DNA from: Bacillota bacterium
Lineage (GTDB): Bacteria; Bacillota_A; Clostridia; Acetivibrionales; DUMB01
NCBI GenBank assembly: GCA_023621975.1
Contig: JAMOAC010000036.1
Location: 1 to 10,873, forward strand
DNA length: 10,873 bases
Direction of reading: 5' to 3'
This document shows positions 1-10,136 of this stretch, in pieces. Within the stretch, counting starts at the first letter, position 1; every line of letters begins with the position of its first letter. A program made the position numbers and the translations under genes. Below the pieces are notes generated by a model that did not search any database, was not told the DNA's origin, and saw only the letters and a list, made by a program, of their open reading frames with translations.

Positions 1-33
1 AATTTTTCAACAATATTAGTTAAAAGCGTTTAT

Positions 34-63
34 TTGATAAAAACAGGTGAGCACAAATATAAC
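34..63 (+). promoter_or_regulatory. Putative sigma-A promoter for gltBD
   Basis: A TTGATA box (34-39) is followed after 18 bases by TATAAC (58-63), a reasonable -35/-10 pair for a vegetative promoter. Transcription would begin near position 70, just before the first possible hairpin of the gltB leader, so the entire antiterminator/terminator region would lie in the transcript. The spacer is one base longer than ideal and the surrounding DNA is AT-rich, so chance resemblance is possible. Confidence 0.45.
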
Positions 64-74
64 ATCATAATAAC

Positions 75-136
75 TTAGCATACGGCTGAGCTGAATTGTT
101 TAAAAGTAAATTAAAGACGTACTCAATGGAGAGTAT
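75..136 (+). promoter_or_regulatory. Candidate ANTAR-type antiterminator leader (P1 + P2 hairpins) of gltBD
   Basis: P2 is clear: GTACTC (119-124) pairs with GAGTAT (131-136), six pairs including one G-U, closing a hexaloop AATGGA (125-130) with A at loop position 1 and G at position 4. A weaker P1 can be drawn upstream: TTAGC (75-79) pairs with GCTGA (90-94), then an A-A mismatch and a T-G pair, closing the hexaloop ACGGCT (82-87), also A1/G4. A competing fold of the same bases (74-90) gives six pairs and a five-base loop, so P1 is uncertain. ANTAR-domain regulators are known to bind paired hairpins with A1/G4 hexaloops, where P2 overlaps a terminator. Forming P2 here uses bases 119-136 and so prevents the terminator at 113-164. 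The assignment to ANTAR is inference from this architecture. Confidence 0.65.
112..136 (+). repeat. 25-base direct repeat, copy 1 (leader of gltB)
   Basis: Bases 112-136 are identical to 6608-6632 upstream of asnA. The block covers the 5' arm of the terminator and the entire P2 hairpin. After it, nine to ten loop bases differ, and then the 3' terminator arm (143-164 against 6638-6659) is again the same apart from one base. Similarity does not extend convincingly outside this unit, so it looks like a conserved regulatory module and not a recent segmental duplication. Confidence 0.9.
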
Positions 137-164
137 AAGTGTTCTTCATGAGTACGTCTTTTTT
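113..164 (+). terminator. Intrinsic terminator/attenuator in the gltB leader
   Basis: A 13-base arm (113-125, AAAGACGTACTCA) pairs perfectly with 149-161 (TGAGTACGTCTTT). After one bulged A the stem continues with TGGAGA (127-132) against TCTTCA (143-148), leaving a ten-base loop, and a T-tract runs to 164. It lies between the putative promoter and gltB, which fits an attenuator. Its 5' half overlaps the P2 hairpin, so the two folds exclude each other. It could additionally or instead end transcription of an unseen upstream gene. Confidence 0.85.
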
Positions 165-252
165 GTTACATGGATTTCATACATTAAATTTTTCAGTTGA
201 ACTGCCACCATACAGCCTACTGGCAAACAAAAATCTATGAAGATGGGAATGA

Positions 253-3200
253 GTGAGTATGAGAAATAACAATTTACCGGTTAAACAGGGACTTTATGAT
301 CCAGCTTTTGAACATGATGCATGTGGAATAGGACTTGTAGCAGACATAAAAGGAAGAAAATCACACAGGATTGTCACCCAGGCTCTTGAGGTCCTTTTGA
401 ACCTGGACCACAGGGGAGGTATCGGAAGTGAGGAAAACACCGGAGACGGTGCAGGAATTCTTATTCAGATAAGCGACGATTATTTCAGACAGGTATGTGA
501 AGATAAAAATATTATACTTCCTGATGCGGGACAATATGGCATCGGGATGGTTTTCCTTCCAGTTGATGCTGATTTGAGAAGAAGTTGTGAAAAGCACTTC
601 GAAAAAATTGTCCGGGAGGAAGGACAGGAATTTATATGCTGGCGCACAGTGCCTGTAAACAATTCATCCCTGGGCGCAACAGCAGTATCCTGCCAGCCTT
701 TTATCCGCCAGGCATTTATTGCGCGTGGTGCTCAGACCAATGAGGGAATGGATTTTGAAAGAAAGCTGTATATTATCCGAAAAAGGGCGGAAAGGGAAAT
801 AAGGCCCCGGGCTGATGGAAGTTACAGCAACATTTATTTTGCAAGTTTGTCGCATAAGACCATTGTGTACAAAGGAATGCTTCAGGCAGCCCAGTTACCT
901 GAGTTTTATCCTGAACTGCTTGATGAACGGATGAAGAGCGCTATCGCACTTGTTCATTCAAGATTCAGTACCAACACTTTCCCAAGCTGGGAAAGGGCAC
1001 ACCCCAACCGCTATATTGTGCATAACGGAGAGATTAACACCCTTAGGGGCAATGTAAACTGGATGCGTGCAAGGCAGGCAATGTTTTCATCAGGCGTATT
1101 CGGCAAAGAACTTGAAAAAGTCTTGCCGGTTATCGATGAAAACGGCAGCGATTCTGCCATGATGGACAATTGCCTTGAATTTCTGTACCATTCCGGTTAT
1201 TCACTTCCCCATGCCATTATGATGATGATTCCAGAACCTTGGTCCGGCCATGAAAGCATGGATGAACAGAAAAAAGCTTTTTATCAGTATCATAGCTGCC
1301 TGATGGAGCCCTGGGACGGGCCTGCGGCTATTGCATTTACCGATGGGAATCAGGTCGGCGCCGTGCTGGACAGAAACGGACTTAGGCCGTCCCGCTATTA
1401 TATTACCGCGGATGGTTTGGTCATTCTTGCTTCCGAAGTAGGTGTACTGGATATAAATCCCCAGAACGTTGTTAAAAAGGGTAGGCTTCAGCCAGGCAGG
1501 ATGTTCCTGGTTGATACGGTTAAGGGATGTATCATTGAAGATGAAGAGATCAAGCGAAAAATTGCAGAAGGCCGTCCGTACAGGGAATGGCTGGATAAGT
1601 ACATGACCGGGACTGAGGATCTGAAAGGAAGCGTGCAGGAGGAGAATTCTGTGCCGAAAGACCTGGTTGCCATGCAGAGAATATTCGGCTACACATACGA
1701 AGATTTATCCATTATATTGGAATCCATGGCTGCAAAAGGTGAAGAACCTGTTGGTTCCATGGGGAATGATACTCCTCTGGCAGTGCTGTCGCCGAGGCCT
1801 CAGCTCCTTTACAACTACTTTAAACAGCTGTTTGCACAGGTGACCAACCCACCGATTGATGCAATAAGGGAATCAATTGTCGTGTCTACCGAAACCCTTA
1901 TCGGATCGGAATGCAACCTGTTGGAGCCTGTTCCTGAGGCATGCAGGCGGATAAGGCTGGAGCATCCCGTTATTGACAATACGAAATTGAGTTTCCTGGA
2001 GAATATAAGGCAGGAAGGTTTCAAGGCAGAGGTTCTGAAAATTCTTTATAAAGTAAGTGATGGCGGTCCTGGCCTGGAAGAGGCCATGGAAGACCTTTGC
2101 CGGAAAGCGGAGCTGGCAATTGTAAACGGGGCAAACATACTGATTCTGAGTGACAGGGAGCCTGACAGGGAATATGCTCCAATTCCGGCTTTGCTGGCAG
2201 TATCAGGCCTTCATCATTACCTCATAGAAAGAGGGCTTCGCATCAGGACCAGTATAGTGGTTTCTTCAGCTGAACCCAGAGAAGTACACCACTTTGCACT
2301 CTTAATAGGCTATGGCGCTGATGCCGTCAATCCATATCTTGCATTTGAATCCATAAAGGATATGATTGACAGAGGCTTATTGAAAGGCCTGGATTACTCA
2401 TTGGCCGAGAAGAATTATATCAAGGCGGTTGTTAAAGGATTGGTCAAGGTTATTTCCAAGATGGGGATATCCACCATTCAAAGCTACAGGGGAGCGCAGA
2501 TATTCGAAGCAGTCGGAATAAGCAGTGATGTAATTCAAAAGTACTTTGCCGGAACACCGTCGAGAATTGAAGGAATGGACATCAGTAAAATAGCCCGTGA
2601 AGTTGAACTGAGGCATAAAGCCGCTTTTAATGCAGCTGACCGCGGTGATAAGGCTCTGGATTCCGGAGGATTGTATAAATGGAGAAAGGAAGGGGAACAG
2701 CACCTTTATAACCCCGAAACCATTTACAAGCTTCAACAGGCCTGCAGAACCGGGAACTATGGAATATACAAAGAGTACGCAGAAGCAATCAATGGCCGCC
2801 CGGAAAGGGTATTCACCATTCGCGGGCTGATGAAATTCAGAAGGATTAACAAGCCTGTGAGCATTGACGAAGTGGAGCCGGTGGAATCCATTATCAGGCG
2901 CTTTAAAACCGGAGCAATGTCTTTCGGGTCTATCAGCAAGGAAGCTCACGAGGCACTGGCAATTGCAATGAACCGTATAGGAGGAATGAGCAATACCGGA
3001 GAAGGCGGAGAGGATCCAAAAAGATTCAGGCCGGATCCAAACGGAGATTCCCGGTGCAGTGCCATTAAGCAGGTGGCCTCGGCACGCTTTGGTGTAACAA
3101 GCGAATACCTTATAAATGCAAGGGAACTGCAGATAAAGATTGCTCAAGGGGCAAAACCGGGAGAAGGAGGACAGCTGCCGGGTGAAAAGGTATATCCGTG

Positions 3201-4857
3201 GATTGCCAGGGTAAGGCATTCAACACCGGGAGTGAGTTTGATTTCGCCGCCGCCCCATCATGATATTTATTCCATCGAGGACCTGGCTGAACTTATTTAT
3301 GATCTGAAAAATGCAAACAGCAATGCGAGAGTCAGTGTAAAGCTGGTATCGGAGGCCGGCGTCGGAACGGTTGCGGCTGGTGTCGCCAAAGCCGGTGCCA
3401 ATGTTGTTGTAATCAGCGGTCATGATGGAGGTACGGGTGCATCACCCCGCACAAGCATAATGCATGCAGGTCTTCCATGGGAGCTTGGAGTTGCTGAGAC
3501 CCACCAGACTTTGCTGCTCAATAATCTCAGGAGCAGAATTGTAGTGGAAACAGACGGAAAACTGATGACCGGGCGGGACGTGGTTATTGCCGCTCTCCTG
3601 GGAGCCGAAGAGTTTGCTTTCGCAACAGCTCCGCTGGTTGCACTGGGTTGTGTAATGATGCGCGTTTGCCATATGGATACGTGCCCGGTGGGAATAGCAA
3701 CTCAGAATCCTGAGCTCAGGAAGAACTTTTCCGGTGACCCGCAATACGTGGTAAATCTCATGAAATTCATTGCACAGGATGTCAGGGAGATTATGGCGGA
3801 ACTGGGTTTCAGGAGGATTGACGAAATGGTGGGAAGAACGGATGTGCTCGCCCTGGATGAAGAAAAACTGAATTGGAAGACGGAAGGATTGGATCTTCAC
3901 AGCATTATGTACCAACCGGATGTTCCACAGGAGACAGGCCGTTTCTGCAGCGTTATCCGGAAACCTCAGCTGGAAAAAACACTGGATCGCAGAATTCTGC
4001 TTCCAATTTGCAGGCCTGCTCTGGAACACGGAAGGAAAGTACGTGCAAGGCTGCTTATAAAGAATACAGACAGGGCAGCAGGAACCTTGCTGGGAAGCGA
4101 AATCACAAAGATTTACGGAGCAGATGGCCTGCCTGAAGACACAATTCACATTTATTTCAGAGGATCTGCAGGCCAGAGCTTTGGCGCTTTTATTCCTAAA
4201 GGAGTAACTATGGAGCTCGAAGGGGATGCAAATGACTATATCGGGAAAGGGCTATCGGGAGGAAAAATCATTGTATATCCTCCAAAAGAAGCGATGTTTA
4301 TACCCGAGGAGAATATAACAATAGGTAATGTGGCATTTTATGGCGCAACCAGCGGTGAAGCCTATATAAGAGGCGGAGCAGGAGAGAGGTTCTGCGTAAG
4401 GAACAGCGGCCTGAAAGCTGTTGTTGAAGCTGTCGGAGACCATGGCTGTGAATATATGACAGGCGGAAGGGTTGTGGTCCTTGGGCCAACCGGGCGAAAC
4501 TTTGCCGCAGGCATGTCAGGCGGAATCGCCTATGTATTGGATGAAACGGGTGATTTCAGAAAAAGATGCAATACGGAAATGGTGTTGCTGGAAAGGCTGG
4601 AAGACGATGAAGAGATCAAAGAAGTGAGAAACATGATAGTAAAGCATGCAGGTTACACAAACAGCAGCGTTGCCTGGAGAGTATTGTCATGCTGGGATTA
4701 TATGGTATCCAGGTTTGTGAAGGTAATGCCTAAAGATTATAAGAGAATACTTGATTTAAAAAAGAATATGAAGAACAGGGGTATGGCAGAAGAAAATGCC
4801 GTCATGGCAATTATTAAAAGAAATAAGAATGACAAGACCCTTATTGCCAGCAATTGA
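253..4857 (+). CDS. gltB: Glutamate synthase (NADPH) large subunit, GltB/GOGAT alpha
   Basis: GltB hydrolyses glutamine and channels the ammonia to 2-oxoglutarate, making glutamate with electrons supplied by GltD. The 1534-residue length is normal. The N-terminal class II glutaminase domain (about 24-430) begins at Cys24 in DACGIGLVA. By analogy with the family a roughly 23-residue propeptide is cleaved to expose this nucleophile. A central domain follows (about 470-775). The FMN-binding synthase domain (about 830-1200) shows [15 protein letters not shown] near 887, [12 protein letters not shown] near 970 and [14 protein letters not shown] at 1056. Cys1133, Cys1139 and Cys1144 have the CX5CX4C spacing of the 3Fe-4S cluster. 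The C-terminal GXGXG beta-helix (about 1290-1500) contains [13 protein letters not shown]. The start is uncertain: GTG at 253 or ATG at 259, two codons later. The weak purine stretch GATGGGA (242-248) suits ATG 259 about as well. gltD follows after 27 bases. Confidence 0.98.
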
Positions 4858-4884: not shown

Positions 4885-6360
4885 ATGGGTAAACCGACAG
4901 GATTCATGGAATATGAACGTGAAGTGCCTTCCTCAAGAAATCCTATTGAGAGGATTCGCGACTGGAAGGAGTTAAGCAATACCTTTTCCGAAGAAAAACT
5001 GAGGGAACAGGGAGCCCGCTGCATGAACTGCGGCACTCCTTTCTGCCATACCGGCCAGATAATAGGCGGAGCGGTCGTAGGATGCCCACTGAATAACCTG
5101 ATACCGGAATGGAATGACCTGGTGTACAGGGGATTGTGGAAAGAGGCACTTTTGCGACTATTGAAGACCAATAATTTTCCGGAATTTACAGGACGGGTTT
5201 GTCCTGCACTGTGCGAGGGCTCCTGTACCGTATCGCTTAATAAAAAGGCTGTTGCCATTAAGAGTATTGAGCTTACCATTATCGAAAAAGCCTTTGAAAA
5301 CGGGTGGATTAATCCAAGGATTCCTGCACGGAGGACTGGAAGAACAGTGGCGATAGTGGGCTCGGGGCCGGCAGGGCTGGCTTGCGCTGACGAACTGAAC
5401 CAGGCAGGACATAAAGTAACGGTATATGAAAAGGCGGATCGCCCAGGCGGATTACTGATGTATGGAATCCCAAACATGAAACTTGATAAGAGCAAGGTTT
5501 TGCGGCGCATTGACATGATGAAAGAAGAAGGAATTGAATTTATCACAAATACCGAGGTGGGCAAAGATATATCTGCCGGTGAACTGTTAAAGAGTTATGA
5601 TGCCGTTGTCCTGTGCGCAGGTGCGAGAAAACCAAGAAACCTGGAGGTGGAAGGGCGTAACCTGAAGGGAATATACTATGCAGTGGACTTTCTGACACAA
5701 ACCACCCGCAGTTTGCTTGACTCCAATTTGACGGACGGAAGGTTTATTTCTGCCAGGGATAAGGATGTGGTTATAATAGGGGGTGGGGACACTGGAACGG
5801 ACTGTGTTGCCACTTCCATAAGACATGGATGCAGGAGTGTAATCCAGCTTGAAATTATGCCTAAGCCACTCCTGAACAGGGGGCCTGATAATCCGTGGCC
5901 GCAATGGCCAAAGGTATATTTGATGGATTATGGCCAACAGGAAGCTGCGGCTGTTTTCGGAGAAGATCCGAGAAAATACTGTGTAACCGCGAAAGAATTT
6001 ATAGGTGATGCCCACGGAAATGTAAAAGAGGTTGTGACGGCTGAGATTGAATGGATTAAAGACAGCAATGGCCGTTTTGTTCCGAAAGAGGTGCCGGGAA
6101 GCCGCAAAATTATTCCGGCCCAACTTGTACTGCTTGCCATGGGATTTCTGGGGCCGGAGGATGAACTGCTTCAGCAGCTTGGCATCGAAAGGGATGAACG
6201 GTCCAATGTTAAGACAAAGCCGGGGAAATATGCTACGAATATTCAGGGAGTTTTTACAGCAGGTGATATGCACAGGGGACAAAGTCTCGTAGTATGGGCC
6301 ATCAAAGAAGGCAGGGAAGCAGCAAAGGAATGCCACGAATATCTGATGGCAAAGGCTTGA
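4885..6360 (+). CDS. gltD: Glutamate synthase (NADPH) small subunit, GltD/GOGAT beta
   Basis: GltD takes electrons from NADPH onto FAD and passes them through iron-sulfur clusters to GltB. At 491 residues it has the usual length. The N-terminal cluster region contains Cys46, Cys49, Cys54 and Cys67 (CMNCGTPFC...GCPLNN) and then Cys106, Cys110 and Cys114 (CPALCEGSC), the cysteine-rich pattern of the family. The FAD-binding Rossmann motif GSGPAGLA starts at residue 159 and is followed by YEKADRPGGLLMYGIP. A second nucleotide site GGGDTGTDC starts at 299 and would hold NADPH. The C-terminal TAGDMHRGQSLVVWAIKEGR closes the FAD domain. The start ATG is preceded by GGGGTGA (4872-4878) six bases upstream. 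It lies 27 bases after gltB with no terminator between, so the two are one operon. Related domains occur in NfnB and PreT-type proteins, but adjacency to gltB settles the call. Confidence 0.97.
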   Translation: MGKPTGFMEYEREVPSSRNPIERIRDWKELSNTFSEEKLREQGARCMNCGTPFCHTGQIIGGAVVGCPLNNLIPEWNDLVYRGLWKEALLRLLKTNNFPEFTGRVCPALCEGSCTVSLNKKAVAIKSIELTIIEKAFENGWINPRIPARRTGRTVAIVGSGPAGLACADELNQAGHKVTVYEKADRPGGLLMYGIPNMKLDKSKVLRRIDMMKEEGIEFITNTEVGKDISAGELLKSYDAVVLCAGARKPRNLEVEGRNLKGIYYAVDFLTQTTRSLLDSNLTDGRFISARDKDVVIIGGGDTGTDCVATSIRHGCRSVIQLEIMPKPLLNRGPDNPWPQWPKVYLMDYGQQEAAAVFGEDPRKYCVTAKEFIGDAHGNVKEVVTAEIEWIKDSNGRFVPKEVPGSRKIIPAQLVLLAMGFLGPEDELLQQLGIERDERSNVKTKPGKYATNIQGVFTAGDMHRGQSLVVWAIKEGREAAKECHEYLMAKA

Positions 6361-6412
6361 TCCGCATGGGTAATGGCATTTTGGCAATGATTTTATATAA
6401 AACCGAATAGCT

Positions 6413-6448
6413 TTTGCAAGAAAAAATAAATAAAATTGCAAATTTTTT
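6413..6448 (+). terminator. Possible weak terminator after gltD
   Basis: TTTGCAA (6413-6419) can pair with TTGCAAA (6436-6442), and six T residues follow (6443-6448). The stem has only seven mostly A-T pairs and the 16-base A-rich loop is large, so it would be an inefficient terminator. No better candidate appears between gltD and the asnA promoter, so read-through from gltBD towards asnA is possible and would meet the attenuator at 6609-6659. Confidence 0.3.
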
Positions 6449-6458
6449 AAAAAAATTA

Positions 6459-6487
6459 TTGACTGGAAGAAAAGTGTATGTTAATAT
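6459..6487 (+). promoter_or_regulatory. Sigma-A promoter upstream of asnA
   Basis: TTGACT (6459-6464) and TAATAT (6482-6487) are separated by exactly 17 bases, each one mismatch from the vegetative consensus. An A/T-rich stretch just upstream (6441-6460) could act as an UP element. Transcription would start near 6494 and give a leader of about 300 bases before asnA that contains the repeated antiterminator/terminator module. Confidence 0.75.
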
Positions 6488-6502
6488 TTGAATATAAATT
6501 AA

Positions 6503-6531
6503 TTGACGGATCAAAAAAATTATATTAAATA
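6503..6531 (+). promoter_or_regulatory. Possible second tandem promoter upstream of asnA
   Basis: TTGACG (6503-6508) is followed after 17 bases by TAAATA (6526-6531). The -35 box is good and the -10 box is weaker. If used, transcription would start near 6537, still ahead of the candidate P1 hairpin at 6565, so both promoters would feed the same leader. The surrounding DNA is very A/T-rich, which makes chance -10 matches common. Confidence 0.4.
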
Positions 6532-6564
6532 AATAGAAAAACAGTAATATGAAATTGAAAAAGC

Positions 6565-6632
6565 ATGTAAAACAGGCTTATATAGAATAATTCAGGGACA
6601 GTTAAAATAAAGACGTACTCAATGGAGAGTAT
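6565..6632 (+). promoter_or_regulatory. Candidate ANTAR-type antiterminator leader (P1 + P2 hairpins) of asnA
   Basis: P2 is the same as in the gltB leader: GTACTC (6615-6620) pairs with GAGTAT (6627-6632) around the hexaloop AATGGA (6621-6626), A1/G4. A weaker P1 candidate upstream pairs ATGT (6565-6568) and AA (6570-6571) with TTATAT (6578-6583) around ACAGGC (6572-6577), also A1/G4, with A6569 bulged. Competing folds exist here (for example AAGC 6561-6564 with GCTT 6576-6579), so P1 is tentative. P2 occupies the 5' arm of the terminator at 6609-6659 and would block it. The likely effect is that a nitrogen-responsive ANTAR protein allows transcription into asnA and the genes behind it. The protein and its signal are not visible here. 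Confidence 0.62.
6608..6632 (+). repeat. 25-base direct repeat, copy 2 (leader of asnA)
   Basis: These bases are identical to 112-136 in the gltB leader, about 6.5 kb upstream, and comprise the 5' arm of the terminator plus the complete P2 hairpin. The flanks differ, which supports selection on the RNA element itself. Confidence 0.9.
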
Positions 6633-6659
6633 TGTAATCTTCATGGGTACGTCTTTTTT
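6609..6659 (+). terminator. Intrinsic terminator/attenuator in the asnA leader
   Basis: AAAGACGTACTCA (6609-6621) pairs with TGGGTACGTCTTT (6644-6656), with one T-G wobble replacing the T-A pair of the gltB copy. After a bulged A, TGGAGA (6623-6628) pairs with TCTTCA (6638-6643), leaving a nine-base loop. The T-tract runs to 6659. It stands between the asnA promoter and asnA, so it must be overcome for expression, as expected of an attenuator. Confidence 0.85.
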
Positions 6660-6715
6660 AGTATATTTTCAAATGCCAGTGATACCGACGAGGTAATCCC
6701 TGCAGGTAAGTATGT

Positions 6716-6759
6716 TATGCAAAATGCAACTTTCATTCTGCAAACTTGCAATTTGCATA
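6716..6759 (+). repeat. TGCAA-rich inverted repeat in the asnA 5' UTR
   Basis: The arms 6716-6729 and 6746-6759 pair at 13 of 14 positions, with one A-A mismatch (6724/6751), around a 16-base loop. The motif TGCAA or its complement recurs several times (6718, 6725, 6739, 6747, 6752). No T-tract follows, so it is not a terminator. It ends about 21 bases before the asnA ribosome binding site. It could be an mRNA stem affecting stability or translation, or an operator for a DNA-binding regulator. No matching element stands before gltB. Function unknown. Confidence 0.6.
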
Positions 6760-6793
6760 TCACGTATAAATATAGATTTGGGAGGTTGAAATA

Positions 6794-7813
6794 ATGAGTA
6801 TGAAAGAGAAAGTGCTGTGTCCAAAAGATTATAAGGCTGTTTTGGATATAAGAAAAACGGAGAAAGCGATAAAACAGCTGAAAGACTTTTTTGAAAGTGC
6901 ATTGGCAAAAGAGCTTAACCTTACAAGAGTATCTGCTCCCCTGTTTGTAAGGCCAGAGACGGGGCTGAATGATAACCTTAACGGCGTTGAAAGGCCTGTC
7001 AGTTTCGATGTCAAGGACATGGGAGGAAGCATTGCGGAAGTTGTACATTCCCTCGCAAAATGGAAGAGGATGGCTTTAAAACGTTATGGGTTTAAGCCAG
7101 GTGAGGGTTTGTATACAGACATGAATGCTATACGCAGGGATGAGGAACTGGATAACCTGCATTCAGTTTATGTAGACCAGTGGGACTGGGAGAAAATAAT
7201 CCTGAAAGAAGAAAGGAATGTTGAAACTCTAAAAAACATTGTCAGGTCAATATTCAAAGTATTTAAAGCCACTGAGGAATACATTTGTTCCGAATATCCT
7301 GAACTTGAGAAAACACTGCCGGACGATATTAGCTTTATAACAACGCAGGAACTTGAGGACCTGTATCCTGAACTGTCTCCAAGGCAGAGAGAAGATGCGA
7401 TAGCAAAAGAAAAAGGAGCAGTGTTTGTCATGCAGATAGGAGGACAGCTCAAATCAGGTATCAGGCACGACGGAAGAGCCCCGGACTATGATGACTGGGA
7501 ACTGAACGGAGATATCATATTCTGGTATCCTGTGCTGGAAAAAGCTTTTGAAGTATCTTCAATGGGCATAAGGGTGGATGAAGATTCACTGGTTAAACAG
7601 CTGAAACTGGCAGGATGTGAAGAACGATTGGAATTGCCGTTCCACAGGGATTTGCTGGAAAAGAGGCTGCCTTATACTGTAGGCGGTGGAATCGGACAGT
7701 CACGTATATGCATGTTTTTCCTTAAGAAAGCTCATATTGGAGAAGTACAGGTTTCGGTATGGCCTGATGAAATGATTGAAATATGTGAAAAAGCCAATAT
7801 CACTCTGCTGTGA
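6794..7813 (+). CDS. asnA: Aspartate--ammonia ligase (asparagine synthetase A)
   Basis: AsnA makes asparagine from aspartate, ammonia and ATP, releasing AMP and PPi. It is built on the class II aminoacyl-tRNA synthetase fold and is unrelated to glutamine-dependent AsnB. The 339-residue protein matches the family along its whole length (E. coli AsnA is about 330). Visible conserved blocks are [16 protein letters not shown] near 55, [14 protein letters not shown] near 80-93, [17 protein letters not shown] near 105, [14 protein letters not shown] near 120-133, [18 protein letters not shown] near 225-240, [15 protein letters not shown] near 255 and the C-terminal [28 protein letters not shown] from about 298. 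A strong GGGAGGT (6780-6786) stands seven bases before the ATG. The gene is behind the second ANTAR-like leader and is followed by glnA after 87 bases, consistent with control by nitrogen supply. Confidence 0.97.
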
Positions 7814-7900: not shown

Positions 7901-9235
7901 ATGCCAAATTATAGCAAGGAAGATATTTTGAGAATAGTTAGAGAAGAGGATGTCAAGTTTATTCGCCTGCAGTTCACCGATATTTTCGGTATGCTGAAAA
8001 ATGTCGCGATAACAGCCGAACAGCTTGAAAAAGCTCTCAATAATCAATGTATGTTTGATGGATCATCGATTGAGGGATTTGTCAGGATTGAGGAATCAGA
8101 TATGTATTTAAGACCTGATGTAAGTACCTTTGCAATATTCCCATGGAGACCCAGGGACAGAAAGGTGGCACGATTGATTTGTGATGTATATAATCCGGAC
8201 GGAACGCCTTTTGAGGGAGATCCCAGGTATGTTCTCAGGAGGGCTGTGGAAAAGGCAAAGTCCATGGGTTATGACAAGTTTAATGTTGGCCCTGAATGCG
8301 AATTCTTTCTGTTTTTCACTGATGAGTCAGGAAAGCCTACTACAGTGACCCATGATGATGCGGGATACTTTGATCTGGGACCTGTAGACCATGGAGAAAA
8401 TGCGAGAAGAGAAATGGTACTGGCATTGGAAGAAATGGGATTTGAAATAGAAGCGTCCCATCACGAAGTTGCACCGGGCCAGCATGAAATAGATTTCAAG
8501 TATGCAGATGCAATAACCACGGCAGATAATATCGTGACATTTAAAATGGTCGTGAAAACAATTGCCCATAGGAACGGGCTGCATGCAACATTTATGCCAA
8601 AGCCTGTTTTTGGAATAAACGGTTCAGGAATGCATACAAATGTTTCATTGTATAAAAACGGGAAAAACGCTTTTTATGATGAGAATGATCCTTTGCAGTT
8701 AAGCCAGGAAGCATATTGGTTCATCGGCGGAATCATGAAAAACATGAAATCAATAACGGCAATTACAAACCCGCTTGTAAATTCGTATAAAAGACTTGTG
8801 CCCGGTTATGAAGCTCCGGTGTATATTGCCTGGTCAACAAGAAACAGAAGCCCGCTTATAAGAATACCCGCAGCAAGAGGCGAAGCTACCAGGCTTGAGC
8901 TGAGGTGTCCGGACCCGTCATGCAATCCATACCTTGCTTTGGCTGCGGTATTGAGCGCAGGCCTTGACGGAATAGAAAATAAAATCCAGCCTCCTGCACC
9001 TGTAGACAGGAATATCTTCGAGATGGGAGAGGAGCAGAGGCTTGCCGGGGGTATAGAATCACTGCCGGGTAATTTGCAGGAAGCAATTGATGAAATGGAA
9101 AGAAGTGAAATGGTCAGGCAGGTGCTTGGGGATCACATTTTCACTAAATATATTGAGGCTAAGAAAAAAGAGTGGAACCAGTACAGGACGAAAATCAGCC
9201 AATGGGAATTGGATCAGTACCTGGCAAGATACTGA
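7901..9235 (+). CDS. glnA: Glutamine synthetase type I (GSI-alpha)
   Basis: GlnA condenses glutamate and ammonia using ATP to form glutamine, the substrate of GltBD, and works as a dodecamer in the cytoplasm. It has 444 residues, the length of the Bacillus GSI-alpha enzyme. Motifs include DGSSIEGF (53-60), GPECEFFLF, the catalytic [13 protein letters not shown], the ATP-site [17 protein letters not shown] and [28 protein letters not shown]. Arg62 and Glu304 fall exactly where the B. subtilis enzyme has the residues linked to glutamine feedback inhibition. I see no adenylylation-type NLYDLPPEE segment, so control is expected to be by feedback and transcription and not by covalent modification. 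The ATG follows AAAGGGGGAT (7887-7896 region) at good spacing. The 87-base gap from asnA holds only a small five-pair CAGGT/ACCTG stem without a T-tract, so co-transcription is likely. No TGTNA-N7-TNACA GlnR/TnrA box was found. Confidence 0.98.
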
Positions 9236-9302
9236 TATGGCATATAACTGAAGCTTCAAAGCATGGAATGATTGGTAAAAGCCCTCAAGAGGAGAAATAA
9301 AA

Positions 9303-10136
9303 ATGAAGTTTACAAAAATGCATGGATGCGGAAATGATTATATTTATATCAGTTGCCTGACAGAAGAAGTCAGTTCTCCAGAATTACTGTCTGTAAAACT
9401 GTCAGACAGGCATTTTGGCATTGGAGGGGACGGATTGGTGTTGATATGCAAATCAGATATAGCCGATGCCAAAATGCGGATGTTCAATGCTGATGGAAGT
9501 GAAGGGAAGATGTGCGGCAATGCTATCCGCTGTGTTGCCAAATACCTTTATGACAACGGAATTGTCAGGAAAGAAAATCTGACCATTGAGACACTGAGCG
9601 GGATAAAAAAGCTGAAACTGTTTACGGAGAATGGTAAGGTTACTTCTGTATGCGTAGACATGGGAAAGGCCGAGTTTGCTCCCGACAGGATTCCTGTTCT
9701 TCTGGAAGGCGACAGGATTATCAACCAGGAAGTAGAGATAGGCAACGGAAAATACCGGATTACATGCGTCTCAATGGGAAATCCTCATTGCGTGGTTTTC
9801 TGTGACGATGTAGATGAAATAGATATTGAAAAAACAGGACCTGAATTTGAAAATGCACCTATTTTCCCTGAAAGGGTAAACACGGAATTTATCAAGGTTA
9901 TCGACAGAAATACATTAAAGATGCGTGTATGGGAACGCGGAAGCGGTGAAACCCTTGCTTGCGGAACGGGTGCATGTGCTGCTGCGGTTGCTGCAGTGGA
10001 AAACGGCTTTTGTCCTAAAGGAGAAGAAATCAGGGTAATACTGAAAGGTGGAGACTTATCAGTAAGGTATACGAACGAAACAGTTTACATGACAGGAAGC
10101 GCGGAAAAGGTATTTGATGGAGTGATTGAACTATAA
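9303..10136 (+). CDS. dapF: Diaminopimelate epimerase
   Basis: DapF converts LL-diaminopimelate to the meso form, the direct precursor of lysine and of the peptidoglycan cross-link residue. It is a cofactor-independent two-base epimerase with 277 residues, the usual size. Both catalytic cysteines are present: Cys71 in MCGNAIRC and Cys220 in LACGTGACAA. Other family signatures are MHGCGNDYIYI near the start, FGIGGDGLV near 38-46, FNADGSEG at 61-68 and GNPHCVVF in the middle. The ATG is preceded by GAGGAGA (9289-9295) with a seven-base spacer. It begins 67 bases after glnA without an intervening terminator and is followed at once by a strong terminator, making it the likely last gene of the asnA-glnA-dapF unit. 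Its pathway partner dapL starts about 200 bases downstream as a separate unit. Confidence 0.97.
   Translation: MKFTKMHGCGNDYIYISCLTEEVSSPELLSVKLSDRHFGIGGDGLVLICKSDIADAKMRMFNADGSEGKMCGNAIRCVAKYLYDNGIVRKENLTIETLSGIKKLKLFTENGKVTSVCVDMGKAEFAPDRIPVLLEGDRIINQEVEIGNGKYRITCVSMGNPHCVVFCDDVDEIDIEKTGPEFENAPIFPERVNTEFIKVIDRNTLKMRVWERGSGETLACGTGACAAAVAAVENGFCPKGEEIRVILKGGDLSVRYTNETVYMTGSAEKVFDGVIEL

Follow-up and report, generated by a model that had tools for sequence, protein, structure and literature searches.

The question raised by this locus is whether the glutamate synthase (GOGAT) operon gltBD is governed by an ANTAR-type antitermination switch, and whether such a switch could work with a single hexaloop hairpin. 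A sequence-only reading of the DNA had proposed two A1/G4 hexaloop hairpins (A at loop position 1, G at position 4), one sharing bases with a terminator and a second, weaker one upstream. ANTAR control of GOGAT and glutamine synthetase (GS) is already known. NitR of Clostridium saccharobutylicum is an ANTAR protein through which GS/GOGAT genes are induced by antitermination when nitrogen is limiting (PMC6316151), the same role has been proposed for a C. thermocellum ANTAR gene (PMC4676874), and ANTAR sites have been predicted before glutamate synthase genes in Desulfotomaculum (PMC3369931). The stretch of DNA analyzed, 10,873 nucleotides and referred to here as the window, carries the following genes.

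253..4857, + strand: gltB, glutamate synthase large subunit (NCBIfam NF008730, 1775.7 bits)
4885..6360, + strand: gltD, glutamate synthase small subunit (TIGR01317, 763.3 bits)
6794..7813, + strand: asnA, aspartate-ammonia ligase (TIGR00669, 374.9 bits)
7901..9235, + strand: glnA, type I glutamine synthetase (TIGR00653, 602.5 bits)
9236..9302, + strand: 67-bp gap between glnA and dapF, at whose counterpart the sister genome G046 holds glnA2 and an ANTAR response regulator
9303-10136: dapF, 3' of glnA
From 10334: partial aminotransferase-like gene (named by eye only)

Hairpin and terminator in the two leaders

Both the gltB leader and the asnA-glnA leader contain a hexaloop hairpin, P2, whose bases are also used by an intrinsic terminator. 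The loop is bracketed in the sequences below.

119..136, + strand: P2 (antiterminator) hexaloop hairpin of the gltB leader, GTACTC[AATGGA]GAGTAT
113..164, + strand: intrinsic terminator built on the P2 bases, gltB leader
6615..6632, + strand: P2 of the asnA-glnA leader, 18 bases identical to 119-136
6609..6659, + strand: intrinsic terminator built on the P2 bases, asnA-glnA leader
6459..6487, + strand: promoter-like site of the asnA leader, TTGACT-17 nt-TAATAT (consensus scan only)

The AATGGA hairpin at 119-136 and its overlap with the terminator at 113-164, both claimed earlier, were borne out by the hexaloop search and by folding. The loop occupies 125-130, with A at position 1 and G at position 4. 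In the minimum-free-energy fold of 60-200 (-40.3 kcal/mol, z -5.12, a value that none of 200 shuffles equalled) the 5' arm of P2 pairs with the 3' side of the terminator instead, 113-125 being paired with 149-161 and followed by a T run to 164. By sequence, hairpin and terminator are mutually exclusive. The terminator stretch by itself folded at -22.4 kcal/mol. The terminator stretch of the asnA leader gave -21.1 kcal/mol, and its whole fold was less exceptional (z -2.96, equalled by 1 of 200 shuffles).

On their own, A1/G4 hexaloops on stems of at least 5 bp are not rare, ten being found on the + strand of the window with both P2s included. A strict chance script, which required a stem of at least 6 bp and, ahead of a T run, 8 bases exactly complementary to its arm, found no match in any of 3000 dinucleotide-shuffled versions of 1-252. 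For 6361-6793, 4 of 3000 shuffles scored and the real asnA copy was itself undetected, because a G-U pair breaks the exact complement. Since all P2 bases also serve the terminator, conservation of P2 alone is no proof of protein binding.

With respect to promoters, four sites were found in the asnA-leader region against 2.5 expected by chance, and the hexamers of the site listed above recur at the corresponding place in G046 (read by eye). A promoter for the gltB leader would fall at the window edge; G046 has TTGACA, 18 nt, TATAAT, and the first three window bases align with the last three of this G046 sequence.

The upstream hairpin in the window and across the order

Known dual-hexaloop ANTAR antiterminators (EutV eut, NasR nasF, AmiR amiE; PMC3369931) share with the window an A1/G4 P2 overlapping the terminator and nitrogen genes downstream. 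They differ from it in the upstream hexaloop, P1, which is missing from both window leaders and present in relatives. The closest genome compared was G046, whose GltB is 90% identical to that of the window over the first 400 residues. In the gltB leader of G046, P1 is TATGC[AATGGT]GCATA and lies 48 nt before the CTC of P2; in the leader of its asnA remnant and glnA, P1 is TTGC[AATGAT]GCAG, 23 nt before the CTC. At the corresponding places of the window only relics were found.

56..69, + strand: P1 relic of the gltB leader, AATATAACATCATA, matching G046 in 8 of 16 columns
6582..6595, + strand: P1 relic of the asnA-glnA leader, ATAGAATAATTCAG, matching G046 in 9 of 14 columns

The relic loop of the gltB leader reads AACA against AATGGT in G046, with two bases missing and no G at position 4, while that of the asnA leader reads AATAAT, its G4 now being A and both G-C pairs being lost. 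A search for a substitute P1 in the asnA leader returned just one 3-bp A1/G4 hairpin at 6503, about 100 nt upstream. P2 was identical between window and G046 in 17 of 17 columns in both leaders, and the terminator 3' arm in 20/22 (gltB) and 21/22 (asnA). Identity was 36/49 and 17/20 in the linkers, 31/40 and 25/40 in the 3' flanks, and 12/20 in each 5' flank. P1 is thus no better conserved than the 5' flanks and has drifted like an unconstrained flank.

The gene order in G046 is gltB, gltD, asnB (other strand), asnA remnant, glnA, glnA2, ANTAR response regulator and dapF. The regulator (PF03861, 60.1 bits, the sole match in G046) receives no family name from NCBIfam, and the closest proteins in a protein search were 94%, 74% and 69% identical and came without genomic context. 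The sequence-only reading had suggested looking for an ANTAR-domain gene near nitrogen genes. Such genes were found in relatives, that of G046 lying 12.5 kb from gltB, but not at the syntenic spot of the window, where glnA2 and the ANTAR gene are absent between glnA and dapF; the window as a whole contains no ANTAR gene. The leaders resemble the NitR system in being of probable ANTAR type and in preceding GS/GOGAT genes. As in a NitR-type regulon, the element heads both the GOGAT and the GS operon (119-136 and 6615-6632); unlike such a regulon, the window has no regulator gene beside glnA, which is followed by dapF.

The two genomes also differ in asparagine synthetase. In G046 asnA is reduced to its two ends (L142:9139-9246) and a glutamine-hydrolysing asnB lies nearby on the opposite strand (L142:6764-8605), while in the window asnA is intact and asnB is absent in between, a swap of asparagine synthetases. 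The best relative of the window AsnA among the matches listed in a scan of genome contigs was 78% identical.

A GltB search of 58 genomes belonging to the order gave matches at E <= 1e-80 in 25. Many of these relatives have a canonical gltB leader, in which P1 reads TGC[AAnGnn]GCA, P2 reads TACTC[AAnGnn]GAG and the terminator makes use of P2; no such P2 was present in the leaders of five Ruminiclostridium-like loci (L108-L112) or of L102-L104. In the relatives the distance from the end of P1 to the CTC of P2 is 17-23 nt, apart from two cases of 48-52 nt, compared with P1-P2 linkers of 5-12 nt in E. faecalis (PMC3369931). ANTAR domains (PF03861) were found in 48 of the 58 genomes and in none of 14 controls, and 25 of 36 ANTAR loci, taken with flanks of about 1.5 kb, also held a GS gene by motif search. 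In Herbivorax sp. ANBcel31 (L001:4639-13123) a canonical two-hexaloop leader heads split GOGAT genes, asnA, glnA and an ANTAR regulator, so this operon offers a compact model of the entire system.

A model, R1, was built from ten elements with the window and G046 rows left out; a would-be eleventh, L106, was excluded because its P2 was displaced by one column in the MAFFT alignment. Two of the four P1 pairs showed two-sided changes, a number reached by 143 of 500 shuffles, while the P1 covariation score of 0.247 (shuffled mean 0.089) was matched by 0 of 500. In P2, three of four pairs were invariant and the fourth paired in 4 of 10 elements. Because related sequences can exceed such shuffles without structure, weight was placed on position and synteny. 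R1 matched the two window leaders at 32.8 and 26.0 bits with P1 skipped, and the G046 glnA leader at 48.2 bits over its full length; the G046 gltB leader gave 30.8 bits, its distant P1 being a separate match of 17.8 bits. In a genome scan with stricter filters, which scored 100 candidates per genome, 36 of the 58 had a match at E <= 0.1 among the candidates scored, and 16 had one at E <= 1e-3. ANTAR genes are present in each of these 16, but 10 of the 16 had also contributed training rows. Among the candidates scored in the 10 genomes without ANTAR genes, matches occurred in three, all weak (E 0.041-0.087). Over the 36 ANTAR loci with 1.5-kb flanks R1 gave one weak match (18.8 bits), because most glnA leaders sit further upstream.

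Loss of P1 was recurrent. A strict script applied to 47 loci found 23 elements with P2 and terminator, 12 with P1 and 11 without; after dropping L111, which lies inside gltB, and the doubly counted gltB element of G046 (L093, L142), 11 of 21 had P1. This script missed elements seen as dual in other analyses (L092, L098, L106, L107 and L177). Sisters that differ in P1 form three well-supported pairs in the GltB tree (26 rows), namely window/G046, L096/L113 and L091/L090. L100 is labelled in the tree as having P2 only, yet a 4-bp A1/G4 hairpin precedes its P2 by 52 nt, and the argument therefore rests on the three pairs and not on the number of changes in the tree. Genomes G009, G034 and G035 have gltB leaders without a canonical P1, yet carry glnA-linked ANTAR genes. 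The proposition that loss of P1 proves loss of the regulator was rejected on these three genomes.

Readings of the window leaders

We give about an even chance to the reading that the gltB and asnA-glnA leaders are ANTAR-type attenuators which now act as one-hexaloop switches, with the regulator encoded elsewhere in the genome. By default the RNA would fold into the terminator (113-164; 6609-6659) and transcription would halt ahead of the genes. An active ANTAR response regulator, as reported for NitR on nitrogen limitation, would hold the AATGGA hairpin (119-136; 6615-6632), so that the terminator would be blocked and polymerase would proceed into gltBD or asnA-glnA. Both leaders would derive from the canonical two-hexaloop form, the upstream recruitment hairpin having decayed in each, and such P1-less leaders should act as one-hexaloop switches. 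What the sequences show is P2 and the terminator, which exclude one another, the two hexaloops of the relatives, the eroded P1 and the absence of the regulator gene from its syntenic place; we infer that a protein is bound, that nitrogen is the signal and that the organism continues to produce an ANTAR protein.

An ANTAR switch is supported by the two near-identical elements before two nitrogen operons, by the bases common to P2 and terminator, by the dual hexaloops of orthologous leaders with their two-sided changes in P1, by the R1 matches to both window leaders, by the ANTAR genes of the order and their proximity to GS genes, by the retention of P2 while P1 drifted, by the P1-less gltB leaders of G009, G034 and G035 and by the reported action of NitR. 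Against it count the loss of P1 from both leaders, given that EutV-dependent antitermination needs P1 (PMC3369931), and the lack of an ANTAR gene in the window, where the G046-type gene is missing from its syntenic place. In published assays a longer P1-P2 linker abolished antitermination (PMC8934654), which counts against loose site requirements. Descent and layout place the leader in the lineage of ANTAR attenuators; as it fails to show two hexaloops, it was not classed as a standard member. Of the switch proposed in the sequence-only reading, what stands is the family, attested in relatives by dual A1/G4 hexaloops, terminators and ANTAR genes beside GS genes, and what falls is the partner hairpin at 75-94.

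A second reading, possible but on the doubtful side, is that the attenuators are orphaned: the ANTAR regulator would have been lost, P1 would have decayed unused, and P2 with its terminator would persist as constitutive partial terminators which lower expression. The erosion of P1 in both window leaders, when it is kept twice in G046, agrees with this, as does the disappearance of glnA2 and the ANTAR gene from their place, and a terminator alone would preserve the P2 bases with no protein needed. However, the P1-less leaders of G009, G034 and G035 coexist with glnA-linked ANTAR genes, so that loss of P1 does not show regulator loss, and useless strong terminators before GOGAT and GS genes should decay, which the high identity of the 3' arms noted above does not suggest. 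Were the orphan reading true, the window would be an example of regulon decay after loss of the regulator.

It is improbable that the leaders are terminators or attenuators without any ANTAR link, for example a leader peptide, riboswitch, T-box or plain terminator. As all P2 bases lie within the terminator, a terminator alone would look alike, but canonical ANTAR hairpins occur in the orthologous leaders, no Rfam family reached its gathering score in the window (1-260 gave only chance-level matches, best E 0.18), and no ATG is present in bases 1-125.

Least of all do we expect 75-94 and 119-136 to form a working two-hexaloop site, a reading we regard as very improbable. At 75-94 one can draw an A1/G4 loop on a stem in which 6 of 7 positions pair, and its A1 and G4 recur at the same place in G046 (by eye), but 105 of 3000 dinucleotide shuffles of 49-118 were at least as good, the closing pair of the hairpin is U-G and adjoins an A.A mismatch (read by eye), G046 has its canonical P1 upstream of the counterpart, the asnA leader has no counterpart, and a competing pentaloop hairpin is what folds there. 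No A1/G4 hexaloop with at least three contiguous pairs was found in 9-118.

74..90, + strand: pentaloop hairpin of 6 bp in the P1-P2 linker, at the place of the proposed second hexaloop (RNAfold)

Its counterpart lies within the long linker of the G046 gltB leader and keeps 5 of 6 pairs, with one two-sided change, G78-C86 versus A-U (by eye).

One-hexaloop elements and ANTAR regulators of the order

According to PMC8934654, the EutV-RNA structure has one hexaloop as the minimal ANTAR binding site, yet termination is prevented only if the EutV dimer contacts the two hexaloops one after the other. The same paper posed the role of single hexaloops in the cell as a question and called for a search. 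PMC3369931 states that both hexaloops are required with EutV. In contrast to the EutV model, the window leaders would manage with one hexaloop. Our literature searches, which reached few subscription papers, found no report of one-hexaloop antiterminators before GS/GOGAT genes, and for "single hexaloop" together with "ANTAR" they found PMC8934654 alone.

Alignment of 37 regulators (those of the 36 ANTAR loci and that of G046) showed Asp at the receiver phosphorylation site in 20, Glu in 8 (L117, L123, L125, L126, L127, L128, L130, L132), Asn in 8 (L084, L085, L086, L138-L141, L142) and Ser in 1. Asn-type regulators include that of G046 and those of Acetivibrio and Ruminiclostridium-like genomes. 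In 16 of 37 regulators Glu or Asn thus takes the place of the phospho-Asp, which suggests control other than by phosphorylation.

Leaders of operons with Asn-type regulators showed another form, RGAAC[AAnGGC]GTTCY, in which GGCGTTCY starts the 5' arm of the terminator. We aligned 28 such elements, of which 16 were distinct: 25 of the 28 rows of a scan (three off-pattern rows were dropped) together with L173, L174 and L191. Two-sided changes were seen in 3 of 6 stem pairs, a number reached by 361 of 500 shuffles, and the covariation score was 0.400 against 0.172 shuffled (0 of 500 reached it). By position, 23 of the 28 lie ahead of GOGAT or GS genes and the other 5 ahead of a gene that matches GS partially, at 28-36%, proportions which are no test of enrichment because the loci were chosen for GOGAT and GS genes. 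Over the 58 genomes the pattern RAACAANGGCGTTY gave 95 matches and the reversed control 46, so that about half of the matches may be due to chance.

In five leaders, L142 (before glnA2), L173, L174, L196 and L206, the hairpin starts 7-10 nt past the -10 box. The transcript would therefore start at the hairpin, leaving no possibility of an upstream partner. Downstream of the hairpin, an A1/G4 hexaloop with at least 3 pairs was absent in four of the five, the L173 stretch ending before the full terminator; L196 has one, of 3 pairs. The regulators associated with these five leaders are closest to that of G046 (55-100% identity), and three of them (G046, L085 and L086) were found to carry Asn. Among the 28 elements, a simple rule found no promoter in 10 and a weak 3-4 bp A1/G4 hairpin lies upstream in 6, and the five leaders are therefore taken as the firm cases. 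G046 itself has both forms, the one-hexaloop one ahead of glnA2 and the two-hexaloop one ahead of gltB and of glnA. The idea that single sites accompany only Asn-type regulators was rejected, as they also occur before glnA with a linked regulator nearer the Asp/Glu type.

The window and one-hexaloop leaders are concrete candidates for one-hexaloop antitermination, the possibility raised in print. Tentatively, and at somewhat short of an even chance, we combine the observations as follows: ANTAR nitrogen antitermination in this order would have shrunk repeatedly from two hexaloops to one, the window being a late step; the RGAAC[AAnGGC]GTTCY form would work with a single hexaloop, sometimes at the first base of the mRNA; and several Asn-type regulators would be switched other than by phosphorylation, possibly by the glutamine synthetase of the adjoining gene. 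Sister species which differ in P1, together with leaders which have no room for a partner, make the single-hexaloop question directly testable, and the answer would reveal how GOGAT and GS are controlled in Acetivibrio-like clostridia.

In Ruminiclostridium-like genomes a second one-hexaloop terminator element was observed before another glutamine-synthetase-like gene, on the opposite strand to glnA. The second elements are as follows.

L175, - strand, 1879
L198, + strand, 7065
L199, - strand, 4499
L200, - strand, 2738
L201, + strand, 6782
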